Positions 1 through 26,354 of a stretch of DNA of 64,000 bases are shown piece after piece (position 1 is the first letter of the stretch; each line of letters opens with the position of its first letter). Position numbers and translations under genes: made by a program. The stretch is from Chryseobacterium taichungense (GTDB lineage Bacteria; Bacteroidota; Bacteroidia; Flavobacteriales; Weeksellaceae), in NCBI RefSeq assembly GCF_900109935.1, contig NZ_FOBV01000003.1, positions 310,001-374,000 on the forward strand. The letters are read 5' to 3'. The notes beneath the pieces were generated by a model. It saw only the letters and a list, made by a program, of their open reading frames with translations. It was not told the DNA's origin and did no database searches.

Positions 1-557
1 GGCATTCTCTAATCGTAAATTGATGTACAGAATATTTCCGTTGATATTTCTGACCCTTGTAAAAATCTTTTCAATCAGCATTTCCCTATCCATTGCGTCC
101 ATTAGAAAATCTTTTTCCTCATTTAGAATGTCCTGCGTAACTTCCTGCTGAAGTTTCGTCGTCTGCTTCCCGATTTCAACATAATATTTTGAAATGAGTA
201 CCGAATATTCAGGATGCTGTGCTGATAGATCCAGCATTTTATTGGAGTTCGTTACTATTTTACCCAAATATTGATAGAGATAAATGAGTTTTTTGCTCTG
301 GGTCAAGGCTGAATTCACATTTTTCAGTTGTTGATAGATGTATTCCTGAATCGCAATGATCTGCGTGATTTTATTGTTGATATCATCATACAATTCTTTT
401 TGCTTTTCATAGGAATCCAGAAAAGCCTGTTCGCTTCCTAATCGAACACCGTGGTTTACGGTGATCTGTGACAGAAGTTTGTCGTTAATCACTATTTGCT
501 GGCTTTTTACAGATGCAACAGAGAAGAAAAAAACTCCGGAAAAAAATATTTTTTTCA
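1..557 (-). CDS. Periplasmic coiled-coil conjugation protein, 3' end cut by window edge
   Basis: An open frame runs from an ATG at 557 to the window edge (185 codons, no stop), so the C-terminus is missing. It begins with a hydrophobic signal-like segment (KKIFFSGVFFFSVASVKS) and is then helical and rich in Gln, Asn and Lys. A central HPEY motif and a late VRNINGN..YINLRLEN segment recur in the gene at 1294-2019. It lies two bases beyond the 3' end of its upstream neighbour, so it is probably part of the tra operon. Homologues are usually called plasmid transfer proteins; a role as periplasmic component of the mating channel is inferred from context. Confidence 0.7.
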
Positions 558-559
558 TT

Positions 560-1285
560 TTAGAAAGATTTAATGTTATCCATGATGCTTTCAACTACTT
601 GCTTATCCCTGTTGACATAATATTGAAAGGCTCTTTTGTTACGTTTTACCTTGGCTTTAATATCCCTTATCTTTAAAAGCATATGGGTAGAATTTCTGCT
701 TATCGCCTTTACTTCACCCAAAGCATAGTCTAATAATACTTTACGTTCTGATTTTTCCATTTGGTTGATGGCTCCGTAAGACAAAATGATCCCGGTTACC
801 AGCCGTGTTACCATTTGCAGATCATCAACAAACTGAACCTGAGAAGGCAAAACAGCGATAATGGAATAGGGAGCATCGTTTATTTCATTGATAATAGCAG
901 TCTGATTGTTTGTTATTTTGGTTATTTCCCTGCTCATTGCTATTCCGGTGGGTATCGCTTGAATGGCAAATGAAACAATTCGCAATCTGTCCTGAACTTT
1001 GGTGATTTTTTCTTTAAAATTGTTCCATTGGTTTCTGTTGGCCGTTTCTACGGTGGCATTCGCAATTTGTTTTTGTCGCATTTCTTTTTGCCTGTCGTGT
1101 TCTTTCATCGTGGCATTGATTTCTATATCCATCATCGGAAATGAAACATTTTCCTGTTGCCATGCAGGGGTAGACCCACCACCGGAGGATCTCAATACCA
1201 AATAAACTAGAGGAATAAGCAAACTGACAACAATTTTATTTTTGCCACCGTAAGGTCGGCGAATCTCATTTTTCGATTTCATCAT
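560..1285 (-). CDS. Membrane-anchored coiled-coil protein of the transfer operon
   Basis: 241 residues with one N-terminal hydrophobic segment (about residues 18-32, VVSLLIPLVYLVL), a Gly/Ser hinge, then a charged helical region (residues 50-90) and a second helical half ending in YYVNRDKQVVESIMDNIKSF. The ending closely resembles that of the upstream gene (DKAIVENIMNRYKRNF), so the two look like diverged paralogues. It sits 8 bp after that gene in the same direction. No catalytic motif is visible. A structural role near the inner membrane in mating-pair formation is inferred from position beside TraG. Confidence 0.65.
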   Translation of the reverse strand: MMKSKNEIRRPYGGKNKIVVSLLIPLVYLVLRSSGGGSTPAWQQENVSFPMMDIEINATMKEHDRQKEMRQKQIANATVETANRNQWNNFKEKITKVQDRLRIVSFAIQAIPTGIAMSREITKITNNQTAIINEINDAPYSIIAVLPSQVQFVDDLQMVTRLVTGIILSYGAINQMEKSERKVLLDYALGEVKAISRNSTHMLLKIRDIKAKVKRNKRAFQYYVNRDKQVVESIMDNIKSF

Positions 1286-1293
1286 AGAAAAAT

Positions 1294-2019
1294 TTAAAAA
1301 TTCCGTTTATACCGGTTCATTATATTTTCAACAATAGCTTTGTCTGTATTGATATATCCGGCAAATGGATTAATAGAATTCCAGAATCCCAATCGGTTTG
1401 CTTTTTCTAATCGCAGTTTGATTGCTAAAAGCCAAAGCTTCAGATTTTTCACATTACCGGAAATATTATGAAGAATTTTGTAGCGGTCTCCTGCTGTTGC
1501 AAGATTCAGCTCTCCGGAAGCGAGAATATCAGAAACGTCGGTAACAATCTTTAGACTTTGCTCATACGTTTTTTGTGAAGCTTTCACCCCAAAAATGGCA
1601 TACTCAGGATGTTCTGATGCTAGTTGTACCACTTGTGATGAATAAGCATAACATTTATTGAGCTCAGAGTAGATTTCCTGTGCTTGGATTCCATTTTGTA
1701 AAGTGCCGGAAACCTCTTTTAAACCCTTCAGAATTTTATTCTGAATGTCATTAGCCGCTACCATCTGTGTTCCCACCCAGGTCTGTGCGTCCTTTAATTT
1801 TGAAGTTTCCTCAATGACTTCGTTCTGCTTGGCTTTTAGATTTTCAGAATAAAGAATCATTGCCGCTGTTACCGTAGGGTCGATGTAGGTGTTTTGGGCG
1901 AATCCCATTGTCCCCCAGAGGGAGAAAATTAGTAGAAAAACCTTCAATATAATATGGTTCGCCAGAGATGAAACGTGACGAAATCCTCTTGGGAAATTTA
2001 TAGGTTTAAACGTTTTCAT
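1294..2019 (-). CDS. Secreted coiled-coil conjugation protein (TraI/DUF4141-like position)
   Basis: 241 residues with a long N-terminal extension, then a signal peptide (hydrophobic core IILKVFLLIFSLWG, cleavage near GFAQ). The mature part is helical (ENLKAKQNEVIEETSKLKD) with an HPEY motif and a VKNLKLWLLAIKLRLEKANR segment. The start overlaps the end of traG by 14 bases, which suggests translational coupling. In Bacteroidetes transfer operons a secreted helical protein of this kind follows TraG (TraI, DUF4141); I see similarity of plan, not proof of homology. Together with the two following genes it forms a run of three related proteins. Confidence 0.6.
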   Translation of the reverse strand: MKTFKPINFPRGFRHVSSLANHIILKVFLLIFSLWGTMGFAQNTYIDPTVTAAMILYSENLKAKQNEVIEETSKLKDAQTWVGTQMVAANDIQNKILKGLKEVSGTLQNGIQAQEIYSELNKCYAYSSQVVQLASEHPEYAIFGVKASQKTYEQSLKIVTDVSDILASGELNLATAGDRYKILHNISGNVKNLKLWLLAIKLRLEKANRLGFWNSINPFAGYINTDKAIVENIMNRYKRNF

Positions 2020-5000
2020 AAGCGTAATTTTGTTTACTGATTAATTCTGAAAAACTGATATTACGGTCTTCCAGTTGCTGTGAAATGATTTTAAAAACAT
2101 TCTTTCCTTTGTTCTCTTTTTTCATCATTCTATAAAAGGAATTGATTTTTTGATCTAAAGGATTTTGGTATAAATTCACGAGTGACACTAAGTTTTCCAG
2201 ACTGTCTCCGAAGGTTTTTAAATCACCAACTATTCTGCGCAATGCTTCATCATAGTCTCCGTATTGGTGCACATAATATTCAACTGCCGATTTTTCCGGT
2301 TTTTCTGTAGTGTAGGTGAGATATTGTTCAAGCGAAACTTCATTTCCATAGACCTCTCCTTTTGAACCTCTTTTTAAGTAAAATTCTTTGAATCGGCTTC
2401 TCCCGAATTTGTTGTTGAGATTGTTGATGGTAAAAATCTTGTTTTGCTCTACTTTATTGAGCGATAGCAATGAAGCGATTTTATCAAAGTTGTCTTTGAA
2501 CTTCGTCTGGTCAAGCAAAATAAATGTATCCGAATTGTTGATGATGGAATCTTTAACCACTGCATTTCCAATAATGTCATCCAGTTCCTGCGTTACCACC
2601 ACCGCTTCTCCCCAAAATTTCCTCACCGTTTTATATAAATAAAGAATGTATCCACCCATCAATTTACTAGCAATGGCCTTCCATGCTTCTTCGATTATTA
2701 AGGCTTTTCTGCGGTCTTTTCTGAGTCTCATTTTCTGAATGAAAGTGTCCATAATAATGAGCGTTACTATCGGAAAGAGCTTGGGATTATCTTTTACATT
2801 ATCAATTTCAAAAACGATGAAAGATTCATCGAACAGCGTATTATCTGCACTTTCATTGAGCGTTGTTCCGTACCTTCCGCCTTTGTAAAAATCTTTCAGT
2901 ACAAATAAAAAGGTGCGCAGATTAAACTCTTTCTCTATAATATTATGTTTTTTATTATTCAGGTAAATAGGAAGAAATTGATCGCAATAATCATAAAACC
3001 CATTGAACGAAAGTTCTGTTACAACCAGCTTTTCTTCCAGTTCTTTTATTTTCCTGATGATGGCTTTTCTAAAGGATTCATTCCATTCTTCTGCTGATCG
3101 GGGTTGCCTGATGATGTCATTCGACTTGATTAAAATCAACTGCGTTTCATTGTATATTTTCCTTCTTTCTTCATCGTTCAGCGTGTCATACGCTTCATAC
3201 ACTTTATAGAAATTTTCGCTTTCATATTCCGGGTTATTGATGTTCTTATCAGGATGATAGAATTTCAATAATTTTCTTCCCGCTTCCTTTATTTCATCGG
3301 AACTGGCATCGAAAGTAATTCCCAAAATGTCATAGTAAGTATGCTGTCCTTTTGCTTCATTCTCATATTCCGTGAATAGATCATCTTCGTGAATGTTGTA
3401 TTTTCCGAGATATAGAATCAGTTCTTCAGAAGTTTTATTTTCATACCATCGAGTTCCAGCATTGAAATACCCGTGGTAAAACGACATCAACACATTGTCT
3501 AAAATGGATTTTTGTGCGGAAGACATTGAAGAATCCGGACCTTGCCAAATCAAGAAGATCAGGTTGGTTAAAAATTCTATTTTTTCGATATTAAATTCTT
3601 TTTGATCCATAAGAAAAGGATTCATCGTGATTGGTTTTTCTTCAGTGTATTGGATGTATCTGCCTCCCTTATATTTGCACGTTCCCGAATACGAATCTCC
3701 TGTATCAACAATGACCACGTCATAATTGTAGGTCAAATACTGCTCAATAATATTGTTCATCAGGAATGATTTCCCCGAACCTGACGGTCCTAATACAAAC
3801 TTGTTCCTGTTGTTTATTCTTCCTGTTTTCATCGGTAGATCCGATGGGTCAACTTTTAGCGGAACACCTTGTCTGTCGGTGAATCTCAGGTAGAAATTGG
3901 ACTCTTCATTGACGGGGTAACTTTCCTTAAAAAAAAAACACAAGGCCGCTTCGCTTGTCGTCATAAATAAATCATACTCCCTAAGTTCTGTTCCATTGCC
4001 CGGAATAGCTGACCGAAAGAGTTCCAATTGGTTATAAGCGTTTTTAGAAACAATGATTCCTTTCGTAAAAAGCTTGTTTTCAATCATTGACTGAATATTT
4101 TCCATTTTCTCCAGTGTCTGTGCTGAAAAAAGGATTGAAAAATGAGCATTGACAACGAGCTGTCCGTCAATGGCTATGTTATGAAGCAGGGTCTGGATTT
4201 CATCTGCTATAATGGCGTTGGACGGAGAATTGTTGGCTGCTCCTTCGTGCTTTTTCTTTTTTTTGTCGAGTTCCCTCTGCTGTTGTGCCTGAAGCGGAAT
4301 CGTAATGATCTGATTGTAGACAATGGTCTCATAATCTTCTAGTTCATTGATAAAACTAAAATTATCAACTGCTGTTTCTGCTGCTGCACCGTTACCGCCG
4401 AGAACAGAGTAAGGCTCAATTTCTGAAGGAAGATCAATATTTTCTACATCCACGTAGGAAATATTTTTTACAAACCTGTTTCCGATCTGCAAAAATTCGT
4501 TGGTGCTTTTGATATTATCAAATATGGGAGAATCGGAAAATTGCATCGACAAAACACCTGATATATAATATTCAAAATCTTTCTCAAACAAAAACTGCGG
4601 TTCACAGTCATTCTGCTTCAAAAGCATCAATACTTTCTGACATTTGTCCCGTAGTTCTTTATAGCTTTTTTCAGAGAAATTGTAATGCTTATTTTTCTTT
4701 TTCAGCTTGTCATCAATAATATCGGTAAAGAACAGAACCGTTTCAATGGTTTTGAAAAGTCTGCCGTCAAAATGTTCCGAATATTTTTGTTGTAGAAATT
4801 GGTTGGATTGTTCGGCTGAATATTTCTTTTTTGAAAAAATATCGAGCTTCTGAACAATTCTTCCTTCTCCAATGATTGATACCACCTGATTTAAAACCGT
4901 GTGGAAAGTGAGATAGCTGTCAGGATCTGCCGAATATTGCTCGACAATGTTTTTTATCTTGATCCCGATAATAGGGTTTCCGTATTGTCCGAAAAGTACA

Positions 5001-5080
5001 TCAAAATCCCAATTGAAATCCTTTCCAAGATCATATCCGATAAAAGGAATGCTAAATGCCTGTTTTTTTGTTGTTGCCAT
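2006..5080 (-). CDS. traG: TraG/VirB4-family conjugation ATPase with an inserted DnaJ-type J-domain
   Basis: 1024 residues. The N-terminal part (about 1-400) matches Bacteroidetes TraG, the VirB4-class ATPase that powers pilus assembly and transfer at the inner membrane. Walker A GPSGSGKS is at 431-438 and Walker B KALIIEEAW at about 793-800, followed by a VVVTQELDD motif. Residues ~579-646 form a complete J-domain: YYDILGI start, helix II with KLLKFYHPDK (HPD at 609-611), then a YEAYDTLNDEERR helix. TraG proteins usually have about 800-850 residues, so the extra length fits this insertion. The start overlaps traF by 29 bases. A J-domain normally recruits Hsp70/DnaK; coupling of DnaK to the secretion ATPase is inference. 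Confidence 0.93.
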   Translation of the reverse strand: MATTKKQAFSIPFIGYDLGKDFNWDFDVLFGQYGNPIIGIKIKNIVEQYSADPDSYLTFHTVLNQVVSIIGEGRIVQKLDIFSKKKYSAEQSNQFLQQKYSEHFDGRLFKTIETVLFFTDIIDDKLKKKNKHYNFSEKSYKELRDKCQKVLMLLKQNDCEPQFLFEKDFEYYISGVLSMQFSDSPIFDNIKSTNEFLQIGNRFVKNISYVDVENIDLPSEIEPYSVLGGNGAAAETAVDNFSFINELEDYETIVYNQIITIPLQAQQQRELDKKKKKHEGAANNSPSNAIIADEIQTLLHNIAIDGQLVVNAHFSILFSAQTLEKMENIQSMIENKLFTKGIIVSKNAYNQLELFRSAIPGNGTELREYDLFMTTSEAALCFFFKESYPVNEESNFYLRFTDRQGVPLKVDPSDLPMKTGRINNRNKFVLGPSGSGKSFLMNNIIEQYLTYNYDVVIVDTGDSYSGTCKYKGGRYIQYTEEKPITMNPFLMDQKEFNIEKIEFLTNLIFLIWQGPDSSMSSAQKSILDNVLMSFYHGYFNAGTRWYENKTSEELILYLGKYNIHEDDLFTEYENEAKGQHTYYDILGITFDASSDEIKEAGRKLLKFYHPDKNINNPEYESENFYKVYEAYDTLNDEERRKIYNETQLILIKSNDIIRQPRSAEEWNESFRKAIIRKIKELEEKLVVTELSFNGFYDYCDQFLPIYLNNKKHNIIEKEFNLRTFLFVLKDFYKGGRYGTTLNESADNTLFDESFIVFEIDNVKDNPKLFPIVTLIIMDTFIQKMRLRKDRRKALIIEEAWKAIASKLMGGYILYLYKTVRKFWGEAVVVTQELDDIIGNAVVKDSIINNSDTFILLDQTKFKDNFDKIASLLSLNKVEQNKIFTINNLNNKFGRSRFKEFYLKRGSKGEVYGNEVSLEQYLTYTTEKPEKSAVEYYVHQYGDYDEALRRIVGDLKTFGDSLENLVSLVNLYQNPLDQKINSFYRMMKKENKGKNVFKIISQQLEDRNISFSELISKQNYAYENV

Positions 5081-5375
5081 TCTTTAAAAGTTTATTACTG
5101 TCTAACCTTTTGGGAAAAATTAAGATGTGATCGAAGTTTTTGGTTTTGTCATACAAACCATATTTGTCCTGTCTTCTGAAGATAAGATAAACTCCGCCTG
5201 CGGTGACTGCAAGACCAAGTAAAGAGCCTAAGAGACCGAACTTCGAGAGTACCAATGCTGAAATGACCCCGCCTCCGATGACACCAACTGCGTAAAAGAT
5301 ATATTTCCCTTTGAGTCCGAAGAATATAAGGGGCTTTTTCAGCCCCTTATAAAGGTAGAATCCCATATTAGGCAA
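5052..5375 (-). CDS. traF: TraF-type inner-membrane conjugation protein (DUF4133)
   Basis: 107 residues with two adjacent hydrophobic segments (about 27-43, YAVGVIGGGVISALVLS, and 48-66, LLGSLLGLAVTAGGVYLIF), preceded by the family-typical YKGLKKPLIFFGLKGKYIF and followed by a charged tail with KNFDHILIFP. This is the Bacteroidetes TraF/DUF4133 pattern, equivalent in size and place to VirB3. It overlaps traE by 8 bases and traG by 29, so the three are likely co-translated. It probably anchors the TraG ATPase to the inner membrane. Confidence 0.88.
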   Translation of the reverse strand: MPNMGFYLYKGLKKPLIFFGLKGKYIFYAVGVIGGGVISALVLSKFGLLGSLLGLAVTAGGVYLIFRRQDKYGLYDKTKNFDHILIFPKRLDSNKLLKNGNNKKTGI

Positions 5376-5691
5376 AGAATGCTGTTACGAATTCCGGAAC
5401 TACAATCAAGAAGATCATTGCTCCCCCATAACCAAGGATCTCTTTGTTGACGTCCTGGTCACCATTCGTCCATTTATTATACACTCGGAGACCTCCGATA
5501 AAACCGACCAATCCTCCTACTGCTTTCAAAATCAGCTTGACCGGATCCCAATAATCAGTGATATCACTTGCGGCATTTGAAATAGCGGTTGCACCACCTT
5601 GTGCAAATGCTGGAGTTATCGCCATAATTGCCAAGGCTAGGGTTAGAACTTTCTTTGTTGTCACGTTTTTTGTGAAAAAATTTTTCATCAT
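5368..5691 (-). CDS. traE: TraE-type conjugation protein (DUF4134, VirB2-like)
   Basis: 107 residues: an N-terminal signal-like segment (LTLALAIMAITPAFAQGG), a mature region starting ATAISNAASDITDYWDPVK, and two hydrophobic helices (LILKAVGGLVGFIGGLRVY and GGAMIFLIVVPEFVTAFFA) separated by the conserved WTNGDQDVNKEI loop. This is the DUF4134/TraE family, which by size and topology corresponds to the VirB2 pilin-like subunit. It precedes traF with overlapping frames. The 130 bp upstream contains a small CGGAT-GGAA-ATCCG hairpin (about 5762-5775) but no obvious terminator. Confidence 0.88.
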   Translation of the reverse strand: MMKNFFTKNVTTKKVLTLALAIMAITPAFAQGGATAISNAASDITDYWDPVKLILKAVGGLVGFIGGLRVYNKWTNGDQDVNKEILGYGGAMIFLIVVPEFVTAFFA

Positions 5692-5823
5692 AATTCAAAA
5701 AATTTATAAAGGGTTAATAATCAATTGAGTGTTAAATTTTGGGCATAGAAGTCCCGGACAACGGATGGAAATCCGCTGTTAAGTCTAATAATCAGTACGT
5801 TAGATTTTGTTTAAGTTGACTAA

Positions 5824-6417
5824 CTACATAATGGATTGATAAACCTTATATCCATCGTGATTTGCAACCAATTGAACCAGGGTTTCAGAAAGATTCAGCA
5901 TCGCCTTCCAATCTTTAATTCTGGAAGTTTTCTGGTCTGCACTAACCGTGATCGGGTTTTCGCTAATCACTTCATTAGGTTTCTGATTTTCCTTTTCGGT
6001 TGATATTTTTTCCTTTTGTTCAAAATACTCTTCGCTTGATTCAGCATTTTCAGGATGTGATTGGTTTTCAATTTCGGTAAAATCCTTTTTTGATGGATTA
6101 TCGAATTCATCCAGATCTTGTTCAGATTCAAATTGTTTTCTTAAATACTCCAGATCTTGTCGTTCTTCATTTCCTTCAGTGATATCAGAATGGATTACAT
6201 TTTTATTAAAGGACTTGGGAGTGTTGAGATTTTCTACATCTTCAATCCCTATAGTTGCAGTAAGATCTTCGTACTGTTCGGAAATTTCGGACAAAGAAAA
6301 TTCCTCCGTCTCTTCTTTATAGGTTTCTTTTTCTTTCTTCAGAAACAGATCGTATACAATGTTACCTGCATAATACAACACGTAAACAGCCAGAATAGTA
6401 AGTGAAATTTTTATCAT
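5824..6417 (-). CDS. Membrane-anchored acidic protein of the transfer operon, unknown function
   Basis: 197 residues with one N-terminal transmembrane segment (ISLTILAVYVLYYAGNIVYDLF, residues 3-24), a long acidic low-complexity stretch rich in Glu, Asn and Ser (about 30-150) and a compact C-terminus (DWKAMLNLSETLVQLVANHDGYKVYQ). The position between TraA and TraE is where Bacteroidetes elements encode TraB-TraD, and the size fits, but I do not recognise a named family. The acidic linker may face the cytoplasm and contact TraA or the relaxosome; this is speculative. Confidence 0.65.
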   Translation of the reverse strand: MIKISLTILAVYVLYYAGNIVYDLFLKKEKETYKEETEEFSLSEISEQYEDLTATIGIEDVENLNTPKSFNKNVIHSDITEGNEERQDLEYLRKQFESEQDLDEFDNPSKKDFTEIENQSHPENAESSEEYFEQKEKISTEKENQKPNEVISENPITVSADQKTSRIKDWKAMLNLSETLVQLVANHDGYKVYQSIM

Positions 6418-6478
6418 TTTTTATTGATTTAGTTGTCAGTCAATCGTTGTCGTTTGTTGGTATTGAATCTTTGATTTT

Positions 6479-7147
6479 TTACCTCTTTTTAATCACTTGT
6501 ATTTTGATTTTTGAGGTTTCATTGATATATTTTATAAGTTCATCGAATGTATGTTCTACTGCATATTTTTGCTTGCCTATAAGGCTTCTGGTATTAATAG
6601 TTTGTAGGCAGTTTCTTTTAAATACCGGGCTTGGCAGCAGCATTCCATATTTTGCGAGCTCAATGTCCATTGCTTCCTGATTCAGATACTTGTAGCCTTT
6701 ATCATATTTGGAACGGATAAATATTCTTTCGGCCTCACTTTCCAGTAGTCCCAGCATATTGATGAAGACCAAAGTCGATTTTACAGAAACATCGGAATAC
6801 TCAAAAGGTGTTACGATAAAATCACTGTATATGAGCAAATCACTGTATTTTGCATCGAGCGTTCCGGCCAAATCAAAGAGATTGATCTCATCGCTTTCTT
6901 TTAAATTAATGAGAGTTTCAAAGTCTGAAAAAGGCTGCTCTTCTTCCTCGCCAATAATTTCTACATCGTACAATTTTGGAATGTCCAATAGCTCATCTTC
7001 TTTCCATTTGTGATAGAATGATTTCTGATAATCAAAATCGAAAACATTGAGTTTTCTTTCTGAAAGTGCGGTAATGTAATTGGCAAAAGCGATGGCTAAT
7101 GTCGTTTTTCCGGTTCCTCCTTTTTGGGTAGCAAATGTGATGATCAT
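6479..7147 (-). CDS. traA: ParA/MinD-like ATPase of the conjugation module
   Basis: 222 residues. The N-terminus carries the deviant Walker A of ParA ATPases (ATQKGGTGKTTLA, residues 6-18), then FDFDYQKS as the Walker A' region and NLFDLAGTLD as the Walker B-like segment. This fits TraA of Bacteroidetes conjugative elements, a ParA-type protein at the head of the tra operon. It may position the relaxosome or the secretion channel, or help partition the element. The nearest upstream gene is the relaxase (48 bp gap). No ParB gene is visible beside it. Confidence 0.85.
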   Translation of the reverse strand: MIITFATQKGGTGKTTLAIAFANYITALSERKLNVFDFDYQKSFYHKWKEDELLDIPKLYDVEIIGEEEEQPFSDFETLINLKESDEINLFDLAGTLDAKYSDLLIYSDFIVTPFEYSDVSVKSTLVFINMLGLLESEAERIFIRSKYDKGYKYLNQEAMDIELAKYGMLLPSPVFKRNCLQTINTRSLIGKQKYAVEHTFDELIKYINETSKIKIQVIKKR

Positions 7148-7195
7148 AGGTTTTAGTTGATTTTTATTGGACTGAAGATGATTTTTCCATCAACT

Positions 7196-8692
7196 TTATC
7201 GTCTCTTTTTTCGTCTTTTTTTGAGTTCATTTTCGGCAGGGTCTTTTGCAGTTCCCGAACTTTTCATCAACTCAAAAAGCATTTCGTTGACGGCTTTGTT
7301 TAATTCTGTTTTTTCATTATTTTCAGTCCGGTTTTCTGTCTGCACTTCATTGACGCTTATGGGATTCAGAAATTTTTGATATTCCTTTTCTCCGATTAAT
7401 GGTTGAAGTTCACCCACGTAATGAAATCTGGTATGAACAGCATACAGCTTTCCATCTTCGCCTTTTGTTATAGAAATATCTTTTTTTTCATCATTTGTGT
7501 TTTTGTTATTTCTAATAAAGTCCTTTACTTCAAACTGGACTTTTCGGTAGGTTTCCAAATCTTTCTTCCCTCGGTTTTCAAAAAGCATAAAGTCCTTGAT
7601 TTCTGCTTCCGGATTATTCTTCTTAAAAAATTCAAGCAGGATCTTTTTTGTTTCCTGGCTGCGAATATTATAATCCTTCAGTATTTCAAAAGTCTTCTTA
7701 TCCACCTTGTCAGAAGTAAATTCAAATACTTCATTCATTTTCATAATATCACTTCCTTTGTATACTTCTCCTGTTTTATGGTCGATCACGGTGTAGCCGA
7801 AAGGATTTTTATCTTCTTTATGATGAAAAACCATATCGATCCCGAAAACATCTTTCAGCTTTTTTTGGAGCTCGCTTTCAAAGGCAATCTTCATTTTTGA
7901 ATCATTTCCTCCGTCAGTAGTCTTCTCTTTTGGAAGCACTGCTTCATTTTTTCTATTATCCACCACTTTAAAAACCTTATTGGAATACAATTCTTTGTAT
8001 TTGCTTAATATGGCTTTCATCTGCTTAGCCCTTTTTTCATTTTTGCTGTTATCAAAAACAATCTGATCCCCTCTAATAGATTTTTGGTTTACTCCGTTTT
8101 TTAAAATGTTAAAAGAATTTTCATCACTTGTGTTTTTGCCTATCTTGTAACCATTTCTGCTGAGTAGAGTTTCCAACTGATCAAGCGAACTTATTTTGTA
8201 GTTCAGCAGCTTTTCCAGTTCTTCTTCCGGTTTCTGACCATATAATTTTTCCATTGTAACGCTTAATGCTTTTTGGGCTTTAAGCCTTTCATAACTGTCA
8301 TTGATCTTTTTCCCTGTCTGTTTATCAACCCGGGTTGAAACAATGTGTACGTGATTATTATCTGTATCCTTATGAAAAACCACAATGAAAGGCTGTTCGC
8401 CATATTTCATTTCATCCATAAAATTCTCCGTTATCTTAGTAAGCTCTTCTTTCGAATGCCCTTGAAATTTTGTAGAGATCATCGCGTGAAATTGAGGCTT
8501 CAACACTTTTTTATTCCCGATTGAAATAGCTCTTAAATAGTTTCTTACTTCTTGCTTGCTGCTTGATTCGTTAATGAATGAAGGAAAATTTTTCATCAGC
8601 ATTAATTCTCCAATGCCTTTATCAATTTTCTTATCGTTATAATGAACTCCTGGAAAACTCGGACCTGCCGGATCCATGATCTTAACAATCAT
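7196..8692 (-). CDS. Relaxase / mobilisation nuclease (MOBP-like, MobB)
   Basis: 498 residues. The N-terminal ~250 residues form a relaxase: a candidate nucleophile Tyr18 (GVHYND), FHAMIS at 68-73, and the metal-binding histidine motif NNHVHIVSTRVD with H114 and H116. The rest is a charged helical tail ending in KKRRKKRR. Such proteins nick oriT, stay bound to the 5' end and are exported through the mating channel. It overlaps the MobC-like gene by 4 bases, so the two form an operon. The tail probably binds the coupling protein, which is not seen in this window. Confidence 0.85.
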   Translation of the reverse strand: MIVKIMDPAGPSFPGVHYNDKKIDKGIGELMLMKNFPSFINESSSKQEVRNYLRAISIGNKKVLKPQFHAMISTKFQGHSKEELTKITENFMDEMKYGEQPFIVVFHKDTDNNHVHIVSTRVDKQTGKKINDSYERLKAQKALSVTMEKLYGQKPEEELEKLLNYKISSLDQLETLLSRNGYKIGKNTSDENSFNILKNGVNQKSIRGDQIVFDNSKNEKRAKQMKAILSKYKELYSNKVFKVVDNRKNEAVLPKEKTTDGGNDSKMKIAFESELQKKLKDVFGIDMVFHHKEDKNPFGYTVIDHKTGEVYKGSDIMKMNEVFEFTSDKVDKKTFEILKDYNIRSQETKKILLEFFKKNNPEAEIKDFMLFENRGKKDLETYRKVQFEVKDFIRNNKNTNDEKKDISITKGEDGKLYAVHTRFHYVGELQPLIGEKEYQKFLNPISVNEVQTENRTENNEKTELNKAVNEMLFELMKSSGTAKDPAENELKKRRKKRR

Positions 8693-9051
8693 CTTGATAG
8701 CTTTGCATAGATTTTTGTAAAGATTTCGTTCTGTTCTTTTTTCAGAATTATGATCTCTGATAACTTATCCGAAAAATTTCTGAGTTTATTTTCGCTGATA
8801 AATTTTTGACCATTTGCTATTTTTGCTACCTGATTGATATTATTTTCAATTTTTCCGAAGATGTTATCCTGTTTTTCAATGAACGCCAATACTTTTCGTC
8901 TCTCGTCATCCATCATTCTATTCTCTACGGAATTGATGATTAGACTAGTCAGGGAAATTTGTTTATTGGAACAGATTTTTTTCCAATCTTTCTTCTTTTC
9001 ACTCTTAATTCTGAAAAAAATAACTTCATCTTTTTGCTCATCAATATTCAT
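8689..9051 (-). CDS. Relaxosome accessory protein (MobA/MobC-like, ribbon-helix-helix)
   Basis: 120 residues, highly charged. The first ~55 residues (DEVIFFRIKSEKKKDWKKIC..ISLTSLIINSVENRM) have the strand-helix-helix pattern of ribbon-helix-helix proteins; the second half is a helical region with ENNINQVAKIANGQK. A small RHH protein just upstream of, and overlapping, the relaxase is the usual arrangement. It should bind oriT and guide the relaxase. Only 37 bp separate its start from the upstream gene, so oriT is probably not immediately upstream. Confidence 0.8.
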   Translation of the reverse strand: MNIDEQKDEVIFFRIKSEKKKDWKKICSNKQISLTSLIINSVENRMMDDERRKVLAFIEKQDNIFGKIENNINQVAKIANGQKFISENKLRNFSDKLSEIIILKKEQNEIFTKIYAKLSR

Positions 9052-9088
9052 CTTTCAAATTCAAATTTGATTTTAAAAATGTTGTTTT

Positions 9089-9412
9089 CTATATTGGAAC
9101 AAAGATGACCGCCGCAATTGCCATAATGCCTACAACGATAGAACTAACGACTTTTACTTTTTTCACTTCCCTGATTTGTTTTTTATCTATTGAAATCGTC
9201 TCTCCTTTTTTGGAAATACCATAAATATTGTTGCCATCAACTGATGTGATTTTTATTTTGTGGATTTTTGCAGTGAAATCCTGAACGTCATATTTGTGAT
9301 TTAATGCTAAAGAATTATCTTTTAATGGTTTGCCAGGATTCGAAACAATAGACCTACAAGATGTTAGTGAAAGAGTGATCATCAGGCATAAAAATTTGAA
9401 AAAGTTTTTCAT
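9089..9412 (-). CDS. Small lipoprotein with C-terminal membrane segment
   Basis: 107 residues. The signal peptide ends in a lipobox (LTSCRS, lipidated Cys19). The middle (KYDVQDFTAKIHKIKITSVDGNNIYGISKKGETISIDKKQI) reads like a small beta-rich domain, and the protein ends with a hydrophobic helix (SSIVVGIMAIAAVIFVPI). I do not recognise a specific family, although Flavobacteria have many lipoproteins of this build. It is 9 bp downstream of the secreted protein at 9422-10513, so it is probably co-transcribed. Confidence 0.6.
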   Translation of the reverse strand: MKNFFKFLCLMITLSLTSCRSIVSNPGKPLKDNSLALNHKYDVQDFTAKIHKIKITSVDGNNIYGISKKGETISIDKKQIREVKKVKVVSSIVVGIMAIAAVIFVPI

Positions 9413-9421
9413 AGTTTATGA

Positions 9422-10513
9422 TTAAGGTGTTACCCAACTTGTCAAACCGTTTACGCTTTTTAGAATATATGTTCCGGTAGCAGGCGGAGTTGGAACTATC
9501 TCTGTTGCAAAACCAAATGAACCATCTGTTTTGGCAACTACTTTTTTCGTATAGGATGAATCTCCGTCTGCATTGGGCATTTGGGAAGGTGTAACGCTGA
9601 GCTTGCCATTGATATTTAACCATCTTTCAGAAAAATCCCCCGAAATCAAAGCAAATTTGTAATCCGTATAATTGTTCGTGATACTATCCCAAAAGCTGGT
9701 TGAACTTGTTGTAACGCGGGTTGAATGTATAGCTAGTTTATTACTTACGCTTCTGTTTCCTGTGGCCGGGCTACCAGCGCCAATGCCGATGAAAATATTG
9801 TTAGACCCTGTTCGGTTTCCTGTTCCTGACAGATAGCCAATAGAGATGTTATCATTTCCTGAAGTAATGTAGGACATAGCTCCCGGACCAATTCCAATAT
9901 TTCTACTACCGGAGATTACGCCGTTTGCGATGCCATTCAAAGCAGAAACTCCTGCAGCATAATTAAGTTTGCCTGTAACTTCTCCTTGAGACATTGCATA
10001 AGCACTAGCGGAATTTCCTTTTCCAGAGGTTATATTAGAGTCGGTTGCAAAAATAGAATTGTAGTCACCGGTGATTGGACTTCTGGAATTTCCCAGTATG
10101 TAATTTTCTTTCTCATCAAAATTAAGATGCAGACTGTTCTTGACAATAAGTTCAACCGTAGAAGTGTTGCCCTTGAGTGCAACTGTATTTAGTGGGTCTT
10201 CTTTTATAAATGACTTCCATAGATCACCGTCAAAATAATACAACCCGGACTTTGTGATATGAATAACCTGACCGGATAAATTAGTAGCTGGAGATGTTAC
10301 AAACACGACAGCTCCTTTTTTTGCAGATGAATATGTTTTTGCTGCGAGTTGGTTACCTGTAATCCTTGGAGGAATAATCCCGTCATAATGATTGGTGTCA
10401 TTTGGTTTCCCTACAACTTCTAAAGTAGCCTCGGGCGTCTGGGTGTTGATGCCAATCTGTCCCTGTATTGTTGTTGCTATGAAAGGCAGAAAAAAATAAA
10501 TTAATGTTTTCAT
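9422..10513 (-). CDS. Secreted repeat protein with YadA-like head repeats
   Basis: 363 residues with a signal peptide (LIYFFLPFIATTIQGQ). Residues ~19-105 (GINTQTPEATLEVVGKPND..) are nearly the same as in the gene at 10597-11391. Residues ~130-260 hold loosely repeated Gly/Ser/Asn segments (NSIFATDSN, SASAYAMSQ, NIGIGPGAMS, NISIGYLSG, NIFIGIGAG) like left-handed beta-roll head repeats of trimeric adhesins or phage tail fibres. Outer-surface location is inferred; I see no sorting domain. It may be a surface or mating-pair adhesin, because it sits next to transfer genes. Confidence 0.65.
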   Translation of the reverse strand: MKTLIYFFLPFIATTIQGQIGINTQTPEATLEVVGKPNDTNHYDGIIPPRITGNQLAAKTYSSAKKGAVVFVTSPATNLSGQVIHITKSGLYYFDGDLWKSFIKEDPLNTVALKGNTSTVELIVKNSLHLNFDEKENYILGNSRSPITGDYNSIFATDSNITSGKGNSASAYAMSQGEVTGKLNYAAGVSALNGIANGVISGSRNIGIGPGAMSYITSGNDNISIGYLSGTGNRTGSNNIFIGIGAGSPATGNRSVSNKLAIHSTRVTTSSTSFWDSITNNYTDYKFALISGDFSERWLNINGKLSVTPSQMPNADGDSSYTKKVVAKTDGSFGFATEIVPTPPATGTYILKSVNGLTSWVTP

Positions 10514-20062: not shown

Positions 20063-21258
20063 ATGAACACATTTTCCAGCTTAAAAGAAGTATTATTTGC
20101 TCTCTCCCGAGAGGAAAAGCTTCTTGCGGAAATGTTCAAGAGACGAAAAACGGCTAAGTATAAATACGAATATGCCCTTGAACTGGCTGATGATAATGAC
20201 GGCAGACTTCAATATCTTATCGAACGTTCGGTTATTCGACAAAATGAAAGTACATTAGAAATTGATGATTTGTATGTAATTTTTTTGAACAGGTTTTAGA
20301 AGCAAATGAAGAAATAAACACTTCGTACATTAACGAAAATCTTGAAAAAGTAAAACAGAATATTGAGTATTACTTCAATGAACAAAATGAACAAAGAAAA
20401 TACGAGTATTTACGAATAGTCAAAAATACGCTTAGGAAAATTGGCATTATTACCTTGCGAAATGTTGTTGATCTGAAGCGCAATATTGACAACACTTTTA
20501 AGAGTGAGCCCAACTACAAAAACAAAAAAGCAAAGCTCATCAATCTTGATAATAAACGAAAAGACATTACCAAGCTTGCCGAACAAACCGAGCAACTAAT
20601 CACAAACGATAATATCACGTTTTTCAAAACAGCAACTGATGAGGAATTGAACCGGATAATTGTTCATTTGAAAATGCAGTTGCATAAATGCACGCACAAT
20701 CTGATTGAGATAGAACGGCAAGTAATTGACTTTTTAAACCAAATTCAACAGCAAAGCGGTGTAATAGAAAAACTGCGACAAATAAAGTATTTGAAAGACC
20801 AATTCATTTTGGAAACATCTACCGATATTAAACAAATTTTAGCTTCAAACAATGCCGTTTTCTTTGAACCAAACCCAAGCTATCCTCTCAAACTTTCATT
20901 GGAATATCTACAAACTGATGAGGAAATTTTTACAACTATTCAGAAAATAGCCGGAAGAAAAAAACTCGGAAACAAACTCAAACAACCTGTTGCCGAAAAG
21001 ATTTCTGATGAATATTTGGAAACTCAAATTCTGGAAGAAGTGCAAATCAACTTAGAAGAAGTGAAGAACGGTTTTGTGGCAGGAAGCAACAATTTATTTG
21101 ATTTTATACTGAGTTATAACTTCTCAAAAACTGTTTCTTTTGATGAACGTGTTACGATTTATTGCCAAATGGTCTCTTTGTACGACTCTGTTTTTGAAAT
21201 AACGGATCAGGTTGAAGAAAAAAATGAGGTTGAATTTGCAATGATTTATCCTAAATAA
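20063..21258 (+). CDS. jetA: Wadjet subunit JetA (MksF/MukF-like kleisin), -1 frameshifted
   Basis: Two frames encode one protein. The first (ATG at 20063; an in-frame TTG at 20045 is possible) ends at a stop at 20299. The second is open through the overlap and continues to 21258. Reading -1 at 20281-20287 gives DDLYVIFFEQVLEANEEIN and a product of about 398 residues, all helical, as expected for the kleisin that bridges the SMC heads. The shift lies in a T7 run that forms a T TTT TTG heptamer in the zero frame. It may be a programmed frameshift, a real mutation, or an assembly error in a homopolymer. Seven bp separate it from jetB. Confidence 0.8.
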
Positions 21259-21264
21259 TAATTT

Positions 21265-21837
21265 ATGAACGTACCCGTACAAACAGCCAACATATTCAAA
21301 ATACTAAGCAAAGGGCAATTTATCAGTTCCAATAGTTCTGATAAAAACATCAGCAGTCTGTACAACATTATAGAAGATGATGAGAATTTTGATAATCTAT
21401 ACGATTACTTTATAAACATCAATTTTGTTTTAGAAAAAGGTGATGAGTATTTTTATTTTAGCAGACCAGAAAACAAAATAGACCTTGAAAAGAAGATTGA
21501 AAAAGCTTTTGAATGGATTGATATCATTGACTTTTTCAAAACTTACGATAATGCTTTTAGTGCAGGATATCGTTTTTCGCCTTCCGAACTTTTGGTAAGA
21601 ATAAAGACAGATGCAGAATTGGAAACAAAGTTAGATGGTCTTAAAAAACATACAGATAAAACCAAGCATCAGGATATTTTAGATAAAATGCTAAAGAAAT
21701 TGATAGACGATACCTATATTGAATTGGAAAATGAAATCACCAATCAATATAAAGTTTTGGCTTCATTCAACTACCTTGAACAACTGATATTAACCATCAA
21801 TATTCCCGACGACGTAAGAAATGAGATACCTGAGTAA
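21265..21837 (+). CDS. jetB: Wadjet subunit JetB (MksE/MukE-like)
   Basis: 190 residues, predicted mixed winged-helix type: TANIFKILSKGQFISS at the N-terminus, FDNLYDYFININFVLEKGDE, then ETKLDGLKKHTDKTKHQDIL. Size and order (between a kleisin-like protein and an SMC ATPase) match MukE/MksE/JetB, which binds the kleisin and helps shape DNA. It overlaps jetC by 17 bases, which supports coupled translation. Confidence 0.8.
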   Translation: MNVPVQTANIFKILSKGQFISSNSSDKNISSLYNIIEDDENFDNLYDYFININFVLEKGDEYFYFSRPENKIDLEKKIEKAFEWIDIIDFFKTYDNAFSAGYRFSPSELLVRIKTDAELETKLDGLKKHTDKTKHQDILDKMLKKLIDDTYIELENEITNQYKVLASFNYLEQLILTINIPDDVRNEIPE

Positions 21838-24800
21838 AATAGTTTTCATCAACAGTGCCGACAAATCATTAAAATATTCCGAAGTTGATTTGGATGGAAA
21901 CGTGCATTTCATCGGCACACAAGGTGTTGGTAAAAGCACATTGCTTAGAGCCATACTCTTTTTTTACAATGCAGATACACAAAAGTTAGGCATTTCGAGA
22001 GAAAAGAAAAACTACAACGAATACTATTTTCCATATCAAAATTCATACATCGTTTACGAAGTACAAACGGAAACTGGAAAGTATTGTGTTTTAAGTTTCA
22101 AATCTCAGGGCAGGGCTGCATTTCGGTTTATCAATTCGAGTTACGACAAAAATTTTTTTCTTGATAATGAAGGAAAGGCGTATGAAACATTTGACAAAAT
22201 CAGAGAAGCACTGGGGAAAATTGATTCCACAAGAATAATCAACAATTATGAAGAATACAGGAATATTTTATACGGTAACAACAAAGGTCTGCCAATTGAG
22301 TTTAGAAAATACGCTTTGATTGAAAGCAAGCAATATCAAAACATTCCGAGAACGATTGCCAATGTATTGCTGAATGCTAAGTTAGATGCCGAATTTGTAA
22401 AAGAAACCATCATTAAATCATTGAATGAGGATGAAATAAAAATAGATTTAACCACTTATTCGCAAACCCATCTTCGTGATTTTGAATCTAATCTCAATGA
22501 CATCAAAAAATGGACAGAGGGCAAAATAGACAAACAAGCTGAAAAAGTGGCGACTACCTATTCAGCCATAAAATATTTGGAACAAAAGAAAAAAGAGCTT
22601 TCTTATCAATTAGGTTTTGCATTAAACAATGTAAAAGAACAACAACCCAAAGTTCAGGACCAACTCCACTCAGAAGAATTAAAACGAGATAAACTCCATA
22701 TTAAACTCAACGAACTGGATAAAGATTTTGGGAAAAAGAAAGAGGATATTTTAAAACAAATTGGCGAAGTTGGGAGTAAACTTAAAGACATAAAAACAAA
22801 ACGTGAAGAATATTCGGCTTTGAAAATAGAAACCATTCTTGAGCGTGTAGCACATAAACCGAGTTTGGATTTGGAAGAGAAAAATTTACTCGAAGAAAAA
22901 AACATCTTGACTTCCAAGTTTCTCGAAACTCAGCAACGCTTCGAAGCGCAAATAAGACAATTGGCAAATCAATTGAAAGAGTTTGAAAACAACAAACAGA
23001 CAGAAAAAAACAATGCAGAAAGAAATTTTAATGTATATGAAAAAGAATTAAATCAACAATACGATTTGATTTATGATGACATTCGACAACAAAATAAAGA
23101 AGCATTAGAAACGGCAAATGACAATGTAAAAGCTCAGGAAAAAGCGATTACTAATCAAAGAATAAAACTGTCGGAAGCCAAGCATAAACGCTTTTTTGAA
23201 GCTGAAATTACCAATTACAAAAATGAAATCGAAACTGTAAAATCCAATATTTCAAACGCCGAAACACAAATTCAGCAAGCTAATGATAAGATTAAATCTT
23301 TTCAAAATGAATGGGAATTTGAGAAAAAAAATTGCGAAACAGATACGGAAAGAAAAATTGAACGGAAATTAGAAGAAGACGAAAAAATCAATGTAGAAAT
23401 CACTACAATTGATGCCAAAATTGAGAACAGTAAAAATTCATTTTACGGTTGGCTGAATGACAATGTTCCTGATTGGGAGAAAACGATTGGAAAAGTAATT
23501 GACGAAGAAAATGTATTGTTTCAGCAAGGATTAAATCCAAAAAAAATGGCTGATGCAAATACAAGTTTTTATGGGATAAAAATTGATACATCGGAAATCA
23601 ATAAGAATGTAAAAACGGTAGCTGACTTACAAAACGAGCAAGCTGATTTTAAAAATAAAATTCAATTCATAAAACAATCTATTCAAAAACTACAGTCAGA
23701 TTTGAATGATGGATTAGATAAATTAAAGCGAAAATTTCATCCGAAAATAAAAGAACAAAAAGAAATAATCCAAGATAACGAATATACCAGAGAAAACGGA
23801 AAAGCAAAACTGGATGAATTTTCTGTACACCTATCGGAATTGGAAAATAAAGCAAAGGCGGAACAAAAATCCGCAATAGAAAACATAGAAACCAACATTG
23901 CTACATTGAGTGAAGAGAAAATAAAGGCCGAAGAACAAGTTCAAAAAATAGCATCAAGTATCGCAAAAACAATCGAAACAAAAAAGAAAGAAAAAACAGC
24001 TAAACAAAAAGAAGAACAGCTAAAACTATCAGATATTTTACAAAAATTAGAAGCGCAAATTCAACAAGAAAGTAAAAACATTAATACAAAATCTGAGACG
24101 ATAAAATCTGCCCAAAAACAAGAACTGAAAGCAAAAGGTGCAGACATAAAAAGGATTGATACCATAGATTTACGTCTTTCCGAAACAAGAAAAGAATTAT
24201 CGTTTATAGAGAGTAATTTATCGGTTACTGAACGCTACAAATATGATAAAGAGCAATTATTCGACAAAGAAAGTGAGTTCAAAAACAACAAAACTTTATT
24301 AGATAAAAAGCTAGAAAACGAAGCGGAAAAACACCATCAACAAAAAGATAAATTTGTTCAGCAAATAGGCATTCACAAAACAGAAATCGAAGCATTGAAT
24401 AAAATTTCGGATACTTTAAAAGCAGATTTAACTGCTTTTGAAAATTTCACCAAAACAGAAATTTATTCGGTAGTTGAGCATTTCATTTCTTCTTATTCCG
24501 AAGTACATAAAACCGAGCAAAATTGCGTTTCGTTGACCACTGAACTACAAATGACGGACAATACCATTACCAAGCGCTACATAGACTTGCAGGAAGCCAT
24601 TAACAAATTCACAGGGAATTTTCAAGAAAATAATCTGTTTAGTTTCAAAGTGAAATTTATGGAGAAAAGCAACTATTTTGATTTTGCCGAAATGCTGAAA
24701 GAGTTTGTAGATGAGAATAAAATCTCCGAATACAAGCAGCGTGTGGAAGAACGATTTGCTCATATCATCCGTCAAATAGGTAGAGAGACCAATTCTTTGA

Positions 24801-25489
24801 TAGAGAAAGAAGGCGAAATCAGTAAAATAATATCCGATATCAACGACGATTTTGTTACACGAAATTTTGTGGGAGCCATAAAAAGTATGGAATTAAAAAC
24901 CATCGAAAGTAAAAATAAAATCTTCACTTTATTGGTCGAAATCAAGCACTTTAATGATGAAAATGCTTTTAATTTGGGCAAACCTGATTTATTTTCCACC
25001 GATGGATTGAACAACAAAAACGAGAAAGCAGTTTCCCTTTTGATACAACTCGTGAAAGAAATGACCATTTCCAAAGATAAAGAAATTACACTTTCAGATT
25101 CGTTTGAACTATTATTCAAAATCGTAGAAAACGACAACGATACGGGTTGGGTAGAAAAGTTGACCAATGTGGGTTCAGAAGGTACAGATATTTTGGTAAA
25201 AGCGATGATAAACATAATGCTTTTGAACGTTTTCAAAGAGAAAGCAACAAAAAAACAGAAAGACGATTTCCGTTTGCATTGTATGATGGACGAAATTGGA
25301 AAATTGCATCCAAACAATGTAAAAGGCATTTTGAAATTTGCCAACGACAGAAATATTTTACTGATTAATAGTTCGCCAACATCACTCAATGCAATGGATT
25401 ATCGCTACACTTACTTATTAGCAAAAGACAGCAAAAATGTAACAAGCATCAAACGACTAGTGAAGAAAATTGTAAAGACGGAAGCATAA
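21821..25489 (+). CDS. jetC: Wadjet SMC ATPase JetC (MksB/MukB-like)
   Basis: 1222 residues with the SMC plan. The N-terminal head has Walker A GTQGVGKST (32-40). Long coiled coils (about 240-1000) are rich in Glu, Lys and Gln and broken by a hinge-like region near 530-600 (FYGWLNDNVPDWEKTIGKV). The C-terminal head has an ABC-signature-like NVGSEGTDILVKA and Walker B RLHCMMDEIG (about 1155-1160). JetC is the motor that extrudes DNA loops to detect small circular plasmids. Its AT-rich codon use resembles jetABD and differs somewhat from the PRTRC genes. Confidence 0.92.
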   Translation: MRYLSKIVFINSADKSLKYSEVDLDGNVHFIGTQGVGKSTLLRAILFFYNADTQKLGISREKKNYNEYYFPYQNSYIVYEVQTETGKYCVLSFKSQGRAAFRFINSSYDKNFFLDNEGKAYETFDKIREALGKIDSTRIINNYEEYRNILYGNNKGLPIEFRKYALIESKQYQNIPRTIANVLLNAKLDAEFVKETIIKSLNEDEIKIDLTTYSQTHLRDFESNLNDIKKWTEGKIDKQAEKVATTYSAIKYLEQKKKELSYQLGFALNNVKEQQPKVQDQLHSEELKRDKLHIKLNELDKDFGKKKEDILKQIGEVGSKLKDIKTKREEYSALKIETILERVAHKPSLDLEEKNLLEEKNILTSKFLETQQRFEAQIRQLANQLKEFENNKQTEKNNAERNFNVYEKELNQQYDLIYDDIRQQNKEALETANDNVKAQEKAITNQRIKLSEAKHKRFFEAEITNYKNEIETVKSNISNAETQIQQANDKIKSFQNEWEFEKKNCETDTERKIERKLEEDEKINVEITTIDAKIENSKNSFYGWLNDNVPDWEKTIGKVIDEENVLFQQGLNPKKMADANTSFYGIKIDTSEINKNVKTVADLQNEQADFKNKIQFIKQSIQKLQSDLNDGLDKLKRKFHPKIKEQKEIIQDNEYTRENGKAKLDEFSVHLSELENKAKAEQKSAIENIETNIATLSEEKIKAEEQVQKIASSIAKTIETKKKEKTAKQKEEQLKLSDILQKLEAQIQQESKNINTKSETIKSAQKQELKAKGADIKRIDTIDLRLSETRKELSFIESNLSVTERYKYDKEQLFDKESEFKNNKTLLDKKLENEAEKHHQQKDKFVQQIGIHKTEIEALNKISDTLKADLTAFENFTKTEIYSVVEHFISSYSEVHKTEQNCVSLTTELQMTDNTITKRYIDLQEAINKFTGNFQENNLFSFKVKFMEKSNYFDFAEMLKEFVDENKISEYKQRVEERFAHIIRQIGRETNSLIEKEGEISKIISDINDDFVTRNFVGAIKSMELKTIESKNKIFTLLVEIKHFNDENAFNLGKPDLFSTDGLNNKNEKAVSLLIQLVKEMTISKDKEITLSDSFELLFKIVENDNDTGWVEKLTNVGSEGTDILVKAMINIMLLNVFKEKATKKQKDDFRLHCMMDEIGKLHPNNVKGILKFANDRNILLINSSPTSLNAMDYRYTYLLAKDSKNVTSIKRLVKKIVKTEA

Positions 25490-25496
25490 TAAATCA

Positions 25497-26354
25497 ATGA
25501 AAATACCCATTCACATCGCTCAAAAAATTGTACAACTTTCGCAAGGAGAAACGCTACCATCAAGCGTGGCTAAACATTTCATTATAGAAGAATTGATTTC
25601 TGAAAGAATCATTGAAAGAACAGGCAGAATCCAGAAAAAACTTCAACTCATAAACCGCAACACACTATTCTTGTACCTTCAAAACAAATACGGAATCAGC
25701 GATCTGGAAAAGTACATTGAAGTTAGCCAGAAAGAAAATGTGCAACGAAGCGATTTAGTTGAAATTTCTTCCAACTCAAAACTTAAAAACGTAAGAACAT
25801 TCAAAGGGTTTTTGGTAAATAGTTATCTTCCTATACAAGCGACTTTGAATGGTGAAGAAACAACATTGAATTTTACAGAAGGAACATTTCAATTTATTTA
25901 TGATTTTGAAAATTTTATTCCAGAGAATAACATTACAATTGTAGGAATCGAAAACGCTGAAAATTTTCGTTGGATAGCAAAACAAAAAAAATTATTCGCA
26001 GATATTAAACCGCTTTTTGTAAGCCGATACCCTCAAAATCAAAGTAAAGATTTGGTAAAATGGTTGCAGTCAATTCCCAATAATTACCTTCATTTTGGCG
26101 ATTTTGATTTTGCCGGAATTGGAATTTATTTAAATGAGTTTAAAAGGCATCTTCCAGAAAAAGCATCCTTTTTCATCCCTGAAAACATTGAAATTTTGAT
26201 TGCTGAGAAAGGAAACAAAAAACGGTATGACCAGCAAAAAATTAATTTCAAAACAGAATCAATTGAAGACGAAAAATTAGCACAATTAATTCAGACCATT
26301 CATTGCTACAAACAAGGCTTAGACCAAGAAATATTCATAAATTATAGCGAGTAG
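25497..26354 (+). CDS. jetD: Wadjet nuclease JetD (Toprim-like, MksG)
   Basis: 285 residues. The C-terminal half carries the Toprim-type catalytic set: GIENAENF with E152, and HFGDFDFAGIGIY with D202 and D204, as in the DUF2220/topoVI-A-like JetD family that cleaves the bound plasmid. The N-terminal part (1-130) is a helical/winged domain. It starts 7 bp after jetC. The catalytic residues appear intact, so the effector should be active if JetA is made. Confidence 0.88.
   Translation: MKIPIHIAQKIVQLSQGETLPSSVAKHFIIEELISERIIERTGRIQKKLQLINRNTLFLYLQNKYGISDLEKYIEVSQKENVQRSDLVEISSNSKLKNVRTFKGFLVNSYLPIQATLNGEETTLNFTEGTFQFIYDFENFIPENNITIVGIENAENFRWIAKQKKLFADIKPLFVSRYPQNQSKDLVKWLQSIPNNYLHFGDFDFAGIGIYLNEFKRHLPEKASFFIPENIEILIAEKGNKKRYDQQKINFKTESIEDEKLAQLIQTIHCYKQGLDQEIFINYSE

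Follow-up and report, generated by a model that had tools for sequence, protein, structure and literature searches.

A J-domain inserted in the TraG conjugation ATPase of Chryseobacterium and its relatives, and a putative slippage site in the same gene

The question raised by this locus is what a co-chaperone domain would be doing inside the motor of a secretion system. The gene, traG, encodes a VirB4-type ATPase of 1024 amino acids (aa) with an inserted J-domain and is found at 2006..5080 on the minus strand, as are all the features of the transfer operon given below, of a 64,000-nucleotide stretch of the Chryseobacterium taichungense genome that was analyzed as a whole and is called the window here. 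The protein passes the cut-off of the NCBIfam model TIGR03783 (473.7 bits, cut-off 261.55) and that of the Pfam family P-loop_TraG, PF19044 (2e-130; 435.6 vs a cut-off of 25.8), the latter matching in two stretches that flank the J-domain, and both the Walker A motif (GPSGSGKS, aa 431-438, 3767..3790) and the Walker B region (ALIIEEAW, aa 793-800, 2681..2704) are present. A sequence-only reading of this DNA had reported a complete J-domain between these two motifs, at 3143-3343, which corresponds to aa 580-646, and the report was borne out on both counts: the Pfam family DnaJ (PF00226) matches aa 581-644 (3149..3340) with an E-value of 2.9e-18 over profile positions 1-63 of 63 (66.2 bits vs a cut-off of 27.8), and the HPD motif is intact at aa 609-611 (3248..3256). 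The J-domain is bordered by two poorly conserved arms, the first at aa 541-578 (3347..3460) and the second at aa 646-688 (3017..3145), and no second DnaJ domain was matched in the Pfam scan of the protein. A chance match or annotation artefact was ruled out by the E-value of 2.9e-18 and by the presence of the segment in all 80 of the loci described below, and a private fusion or assembly chimera was ruled out by the 100% identity over aa 1-1024 of the protein in two Chryseobacterium species.

The segment is also predicted to fold as a J-domain. A sequence search of the PDB gave human DNAJB8 as the top match (E 3.1e-12), and chains of E. coli DnaJ and Sec63 were matched as well. The first AlphaFold model, built for the whole TraG from 42 rows, was weak overall (mean pLDDT 61.4) and poor in the motor domain, while the blocks covering aa 581-640 had a pLDDT of 76-84. 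The helices of the J segment in this model comprise aa 582-586, 594-607, 610-613, 621-635 and 637-653, and the HPD sits between helices 594-607 and 621-635, that is, between helices II and III. The predicted segment matched many J-domain structures, among them 4wb7 (Z 11.8, rmsd 1.7, 72 residues aligned) and the DnaK-bound DnaJ 5nro_B (Z 9.1, rmsd 1.7, 62 aligned), which is the helical fold that the sequence-only reading had proposed to look for in a predicted structure. In the same model, with its mean pLDDT of 61.4, aa 1-394 (3899..5080) matched TrwK/VirB4 7o41 (Z 29.0, rmsd 3.6, 354 aligned) and constitute the N-terminal VirB4 domain. The second model, aa 395-955 rebuilt from a broader sequence set, reached a pLDDT of 80.8 and a pTM of 0.71 and matched VirB4 4ag6 (Z 29.3, rmsd 3.7, 346/373 residues aligned), and on this match the VirB4 motor core appears to be intact, with the J-domain as an addition to it.

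The gene lies within a transfer operon. Next to traG are the genes of a DUF4133 protein (5052..5375; PF13571 at 8.1e-5, below the cut-off, with DUF4133 annotated at the same place in a related plasmid), which we take to be the protein usually called TraF, and of a DUF4134 protein (5368..5691; PF13572, 3.2e-26), presumably the one usually called TraE. These are followed by a ParA-like ATPase (6479..7147), a MobA/VirD2-type relaxase (7196..8692; PF03432, 1.6e-20) and a probable MobC-like accessory protein (8689..9051), which has no family match and occupies the position of mobC in the related plasmid L119. On the other side of traG are two unassigned transfer-operon proteins. One of them (1294..2019) has no family match, and an unassigned gene of similar length comes after traG on the plasmids L119 and L120; the other (560..1285) has no Pfam match at 0.001 and only NCBIfam matches below the cut-off, and a like order is found in L119 and L120. 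Beyond the left edge of the window are genes for TraM, DUF4138, a coupling protein and an M23 peptidase and a TrbL-like match below the cut-off. No Hsp70 gene was found among the 20 open reading frames (ORFs) in and beside the window that were scanned with Pfam. We call TraGs with the J-domain J-TraGs; Chryseobacterium sp. JJR-5R and Sphingobacterium faecium also have plasmid-borne J-TraGs, with a similar gene order around them. The protein thus resembles the TraGs of TIGR03783 and PF19044 in passing their cut-offs, in its Walker A and B motifs, in its DUF4134, TraM, DUF4138 and coupling protein neighbors and in the predicted 4ag6/7o41 core fold, and it differs from them in about 150 extra residues that carry the J-domain.

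A scan of genome contigs identified 116 relatives. The best 80 of them were retained, and all of these 80 carry a J segment with the HPD, 70 being recognized by pattern and the other 10 by inspection of the sequences. The best 80 are found mostly in Weeksellaceae (Chryseobacterium, Epilithonimonas, Kaistella, Cloacibacterium, Elizabethkingia, Empedobacter, Riemerella and others) and also in Capnocytophaga. Searches with the insert and its flanks gave matches in 15 of 296 genomes of the order, all of them in the family of the window, in 2 of 395 genomes of the class, both in its genus, and, at a coverage of at least 80%, in 2 of 72,556 plasmid records; scans of viral contigs gave 6, 0 and 6 relatives. 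In 296 genomes of the family there are at least 107 single-frame matches to aa 330-440 with an E-value of 4.5e-45 or better and at least 6 frame-split copies, the first figure being a hand count among the matches listed (to about E 2e-21) in which the J-domain was not checked one by one. The genome of the window itself contains, on contigs C17 and C9 (genome G000 of our set), a second J-TraG that is frame-split and 85% identical and a canonical TraG of 840 aa without the J-domain.

To place the insert within the family, a non-random sample of 145 TraG ORFs was aligned, leaving out 8 ORFs shorter than 750 aa (L021, L133, L002, L156, L140 and L003, which are pieces of broken J-TraGs and were analyzed separately, and L124 and L162). 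The J insert is present in 95 of the 145, 38 have no insert, and 12 (L121, L122, L123, L125, L157-L161, L163, L167 and L169, some of them plasmid relatives) carry a different insert there, 56-112 residues long and with many charged residues. The 95 J-TraGs were chosen by the presence of the HPD, so that its occurrence in 95/95 is circular, and they include near-copies; the 80-locus set was not chosen in this way, and a set of 31 representatives removes the copies. A tree of 70 representatives, made by a quick method with the insert columns removed, places the 31 J-TraGs on one side of a branch with an SH-aLRT of 100, and it carries long-branch warnings, one of them where the J-TraGs join the nearest group. 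The J insert was apparently gained once, in one TraG clade, and J-TraG would apparently represent a widespread insertion of a co-chaperone domain, of single origin, into a conjugation motor. The sequence-only reading had held that TraGs usually have no J-domain, which agrees with the 38 insert-free members, and had asked whether the segment might be a normal part of the family; here the answer is divided, since it is a standing feature of one TraG clade and not of TIGR03783/PF19044 at large. In the alignment, this site of the VirB4 motor, between the Walker motifs, stands out as a hot spot for insertions. Among the other inserts, those of L121, L122, L125 and L157 and of L192 and L193 from viral contigs gave no Pfam match above the cut-off but DUF87, which spans the ATPase, any further matches falling below the cut-off, and DUF2786, which had been suspected in the Bacteroides form of the insert, was absent from the Pfam matches.

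Residue conservation within the J-domain was analyzed in 42 aligned J-TraGs, consisting of that of the window and 41 of the 80 best loci. Ten J-domain columns are invariant (Y583, L586, H609, P610, D611, A630, Y631, L634, R640 and Y643), R602 is found in 41/42 and N613 in 40/42. The entropy is zero at H609, P610 and D611, and it is 2.19, 2.28 and 2.89 bits at the nearby positions 606, 607 and 614. The HPD is not a folding determinant, as is known from DnaJ mutants, and its invariance beside variable columns, in a motif that the fold does not require, speaks for a coupling to DnaK. We propose, with a probability of about 0.7, that the inserted J-domain recruits host DnaK to the secretion motor. 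Each motor subunit would carry one J-domain, so that host DnaK would be drawn to the cytoplasmic side of the channel, where the J-domain would trigger its ATP hydrolysis in the way Sec63 and Pam18 do at translocons; both are J proteins that recruit Hsp70 and trigger its ATP hydrolysis there. Once at the channel, DnaK could take hold of a client, for which the relaxase (for unfolding), a pilin subunit and the motor itself are equally possible candidates.

Four observations stand against the coupling to DnaK, one of them being the lack of an Hsp70 match among the 20 ORFs mentioned above. Helix II is part of the DnaK contact surface, and it is atypical in most J-TraGs because position 601 is Gly in 31/42 of them vs Tyr in DNAJB8, the top PDB match. 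Variation is greater in the J-domain and in its arms than in the motor core, with mean entropies of 1.06, 1.41 and 1.60 bits vs 0.29 and 0.23 bits in the 42 J-TraGs. Finally, L231 (genome G992, contig C15), a divergent TraG that is 62% identical over aa 330-440, has a J-like segment between Walker A and B in which the HPD is lost; this segment gave no DnaJ match at 1e-10, and the T run described below is also absent. The J-domain might instead be only a structural or docking module at an insert-tolerant site, with no Hsp70 activity, which would agree with the other inserts at the site in 12 of the 145 TraGs and the lack of any in 38, with the retention of the insert and loss of the HPD in L231, and with the Gly at 601. 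We regard such a module as unlikely, since it leaves the HPD, invariant in 42/42 rows next to highly variable columns and unneeded for the fold, without an explanation. It is more improbable still, in our estimate, that the J-domain serves as a sensor, in which DnaK bound to TraG would gate the motor so that transfer tracks the free DnaK of the host and hence its stress state. Because the insert lies between Walker A and B, DnaK occupancy could affect ATP turnover, and a sensor likewise requires an intact HPD; at the level of sequence, sensing and client handling look alike.

Recruitment of DnaK by J-TraG would have a parallel in the J-domain proteins (DnaJ/Hsp40), among them Sec63 and Pam18, which share with it a full J-domain with the HPD attached to a translocation machine, and it would differ in that J-TraG has its J-domain within the ATPase that powers a type IV secretion system. 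If the proposal is true, the Hsp70 system would be physically tied to a bacterial secretion motor in widespread mobile elements, and the unfolding of conjugation substrates would become testable through one HPD mutation. In searches of open-licence literature we found no paper on a J-domain in TraG or VirB4, or on slippage in either, and the plasmid DnaJ described in the available text of PMC3756968 is a stand-alone protein and not a fusion. As a separate observation from the plasmid searches, in plasmids of Rhodococcus and Gordonia (H90, H91 and H93-H99) the J match covers both the gene of a J-domain protein and a GrpE gene, so that the two genes are adjacent or overlapping.

The same gene contains a second element, which we judge to be more surprising than the J insert. 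Codons 381-384 of traG (TGT TTT TTT TTT, 3929..3940) contain a run of ten T (3929-3938; A10 on the plus strand), and an RNA hairpin is predicted just upstream of it (3941..3964, codons 373-380, the fold extending over codons 373-381); both lie where the VirB4 N-terminal domain passes into the motor. The run is T10 in 93 of the 95 intact J-TraGs and T9 in the other 2, and of 30 further loci inspected, 29 share this run and 1, a copy with an in-frame stop, has a longer one. Codon usage was compared among the 31 representatives, which are less than 92% identical to each other, at 169 conserved two-fold-degenerate columns. Codons 381-384 are identical in 31/31 and are the only 4 of the 169 columns with a single codon; the other 26 invariant Phe columns vary. 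By parsimony on the tree there are 0 changes at codons 381-384, and each of the remaining 165 columns has changed at least once. The ratio of synonymous change, which averages 1.00 over all windows (sd 0.12), falls to its gene-wide minimum of 0.32 at codons 380-386, and the constraint extends upstream to about codon 370. In relatives without the J-domain but with the same encoded peptide (L123, L181 and L184), both TTC and TTT are used. The T run may be older than the J insert, since the three Sphingobacteriales plasmid genes that are nearest in the tree (L121, L163 and L164; support 88) also have TTT TTT TTT AAR.

Synonymous recoding makes the hairpin less stable in 31/31 genes (mean -5.2 kcal/mol vs -1.8 kcal/mol after recoding), and the details of the hairpin differ between genes. 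Its window had the lowest mean z of 331 windows, -2.07 (the other 330 had a mean of -0.10 and an sd of 0.32), and a repeat with 300 recodings gave -1.9. Because related sequences are not independent, the Wilcoxon p value of this repeat is not to be taken at face value, and ranking the hairpin against other windows within these genes is the more reliable control. Two of the 330 other windows have a lower raw folding energy, so that the standing of the hairpin rests on the comparison with synonymous recodings. No stimulating structure was detected 3' of the run, where the 60 nt are no more stable than elsewhere (-8.1 vs -7.6, sd 3.3). Addition of one U to the run leads to an immediate UAA after Cys-Phe-Phe-Phe in 93/95 genes, and with one U fewer the frame runs on for 3, 9 or 17 residues, the Cys being the first of them, in 2, 72 and 21 of the 95 genes, respectively. 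Since either slipped frame ends early, the product would be the N-terminal VirB4 domain alone.

From these patterns we lean towards the view that the hairpin and the U10 form a programmed slippage site right between the N-terminal domain and the motor, where transcripts containing one extra U would end at UAA. The gene would then have two products, the full-length J-TraG, which would recruit DnaK, and the N-terminal domain alone, which would not, and traG probably makes the latter through slippage in addition to the complete protein. Some lineages may have switched the default frame, so that their motor half would be made through slippage. A hairpin followed by a U run, with a mean minimum free energy of -5.2 kcal/mol in the 31 genes, is also the architecture of a transcription terminator, and the element could be read as an intragenic attenuator. 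This seems improbable to us: the hairpin is weak for the purpose, the site is missing from a terminator scan of window positions 1-9500, and termination cannot account for the purifying selection found downstream of the stop in two diverged sister copies, which are described in the following.

Seven natural J-TraG copies are broken (L228, L230, L002/L195, L224, L226, L227 and L229), six being frame-split and one containing an in-frame stop, and all of them break at codons 381-384, Cys-Phe-Phe-Phe. L228 and L230 belong to different genera, are sisters in the tree (SH-aLRT 100) and have the same break, with the default frame stopping at the run. Their motor halves, which are under strong purifying selection, still carry the J-domain and differ by a dS of about 2.2 and a dN of 0.053 (dN/dS 0.024), and the dN/dS of the upstream half is 0.02; these are simple Nei-Gojobori values with dS near saturation. 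The shared state suggests that the break was inherited, and if so, the motor half with its J-domain has long been functional behind a stop. The pair is the strongest hint that the frame changes are productive. The main rival to a productive frame change in L228 and L230 is translation from an internal start, as a GTG or ATG is available in the downstream frame ahead of Walker A in 7/7 broken copies, and the frame-broken copies in general might be two separately translated proteins, or else the result of recent damage or homopolymer assembly error; homopolymers are error-prone, and 5 of the 7 breaks could be recent. We consider this set of explanations doubtful. Two sisters sharing one break, at a dS of about 2.2 with a dN/dS of 0.024 downstream and an SH-aLRT of 100, argue against it, and neither version explains why the T10 codons are unchanging in the unbroken representatives.

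Programmed slippage of this kind has described counterparts. The available text of PMC5009743 reports that in a Roseiflexus insertion sequence the RNA polymerase is made to slip at a homopolymer by a hairpin that the nascent RNA forms immediately 5' of it, that 9 A or T in a row suffice for efficient slippage, as discussed along with the slippage in Thermus dnaX, and that mxiA and spa33 of the Shigella type III secretion system give truncated products through slippage. The Roseiflexus element, with its hairpin 5' of the homopolymer, is the closest architecture described in that text; the element in traG differs from it and from Thermus dnaX in being located in the gene of a secretion ATPase, in its T10, in its predicted N-terminal-domain product and in being a prediction from sequence. 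The Shigella genes (PMC5009743) are alike in yielding a truncated product of a secretion gene, and they belong to another secretion system and are other genes. The terms TraG, conjug and VirB4 are absent from the main text of the GeneTack survey (PMC3711429). If the slippage element is real, a single VirB4 gene would yield two products at a fixed ratio, a point of relevance to the multiple arrangements of VirB4 in type IV secretion complexes. In work on R388, VirB4 subunits are reportedly present in more than one arrangement in these complexes; the PDB titles among our fold matches include an unbound form of TrwK beside the inner-membrane complex.

Elsewhere in the window, at 20455-26354, there are four consecutive ORFs, one of them matching DUF3584 (6.6e-51) and one giving a weak match to JetD (1.3e-5). 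The three ORFs besides that with DUF3584 had no PADLOC match, and the group is possibly a Wadjet-like anti-plasmid system.
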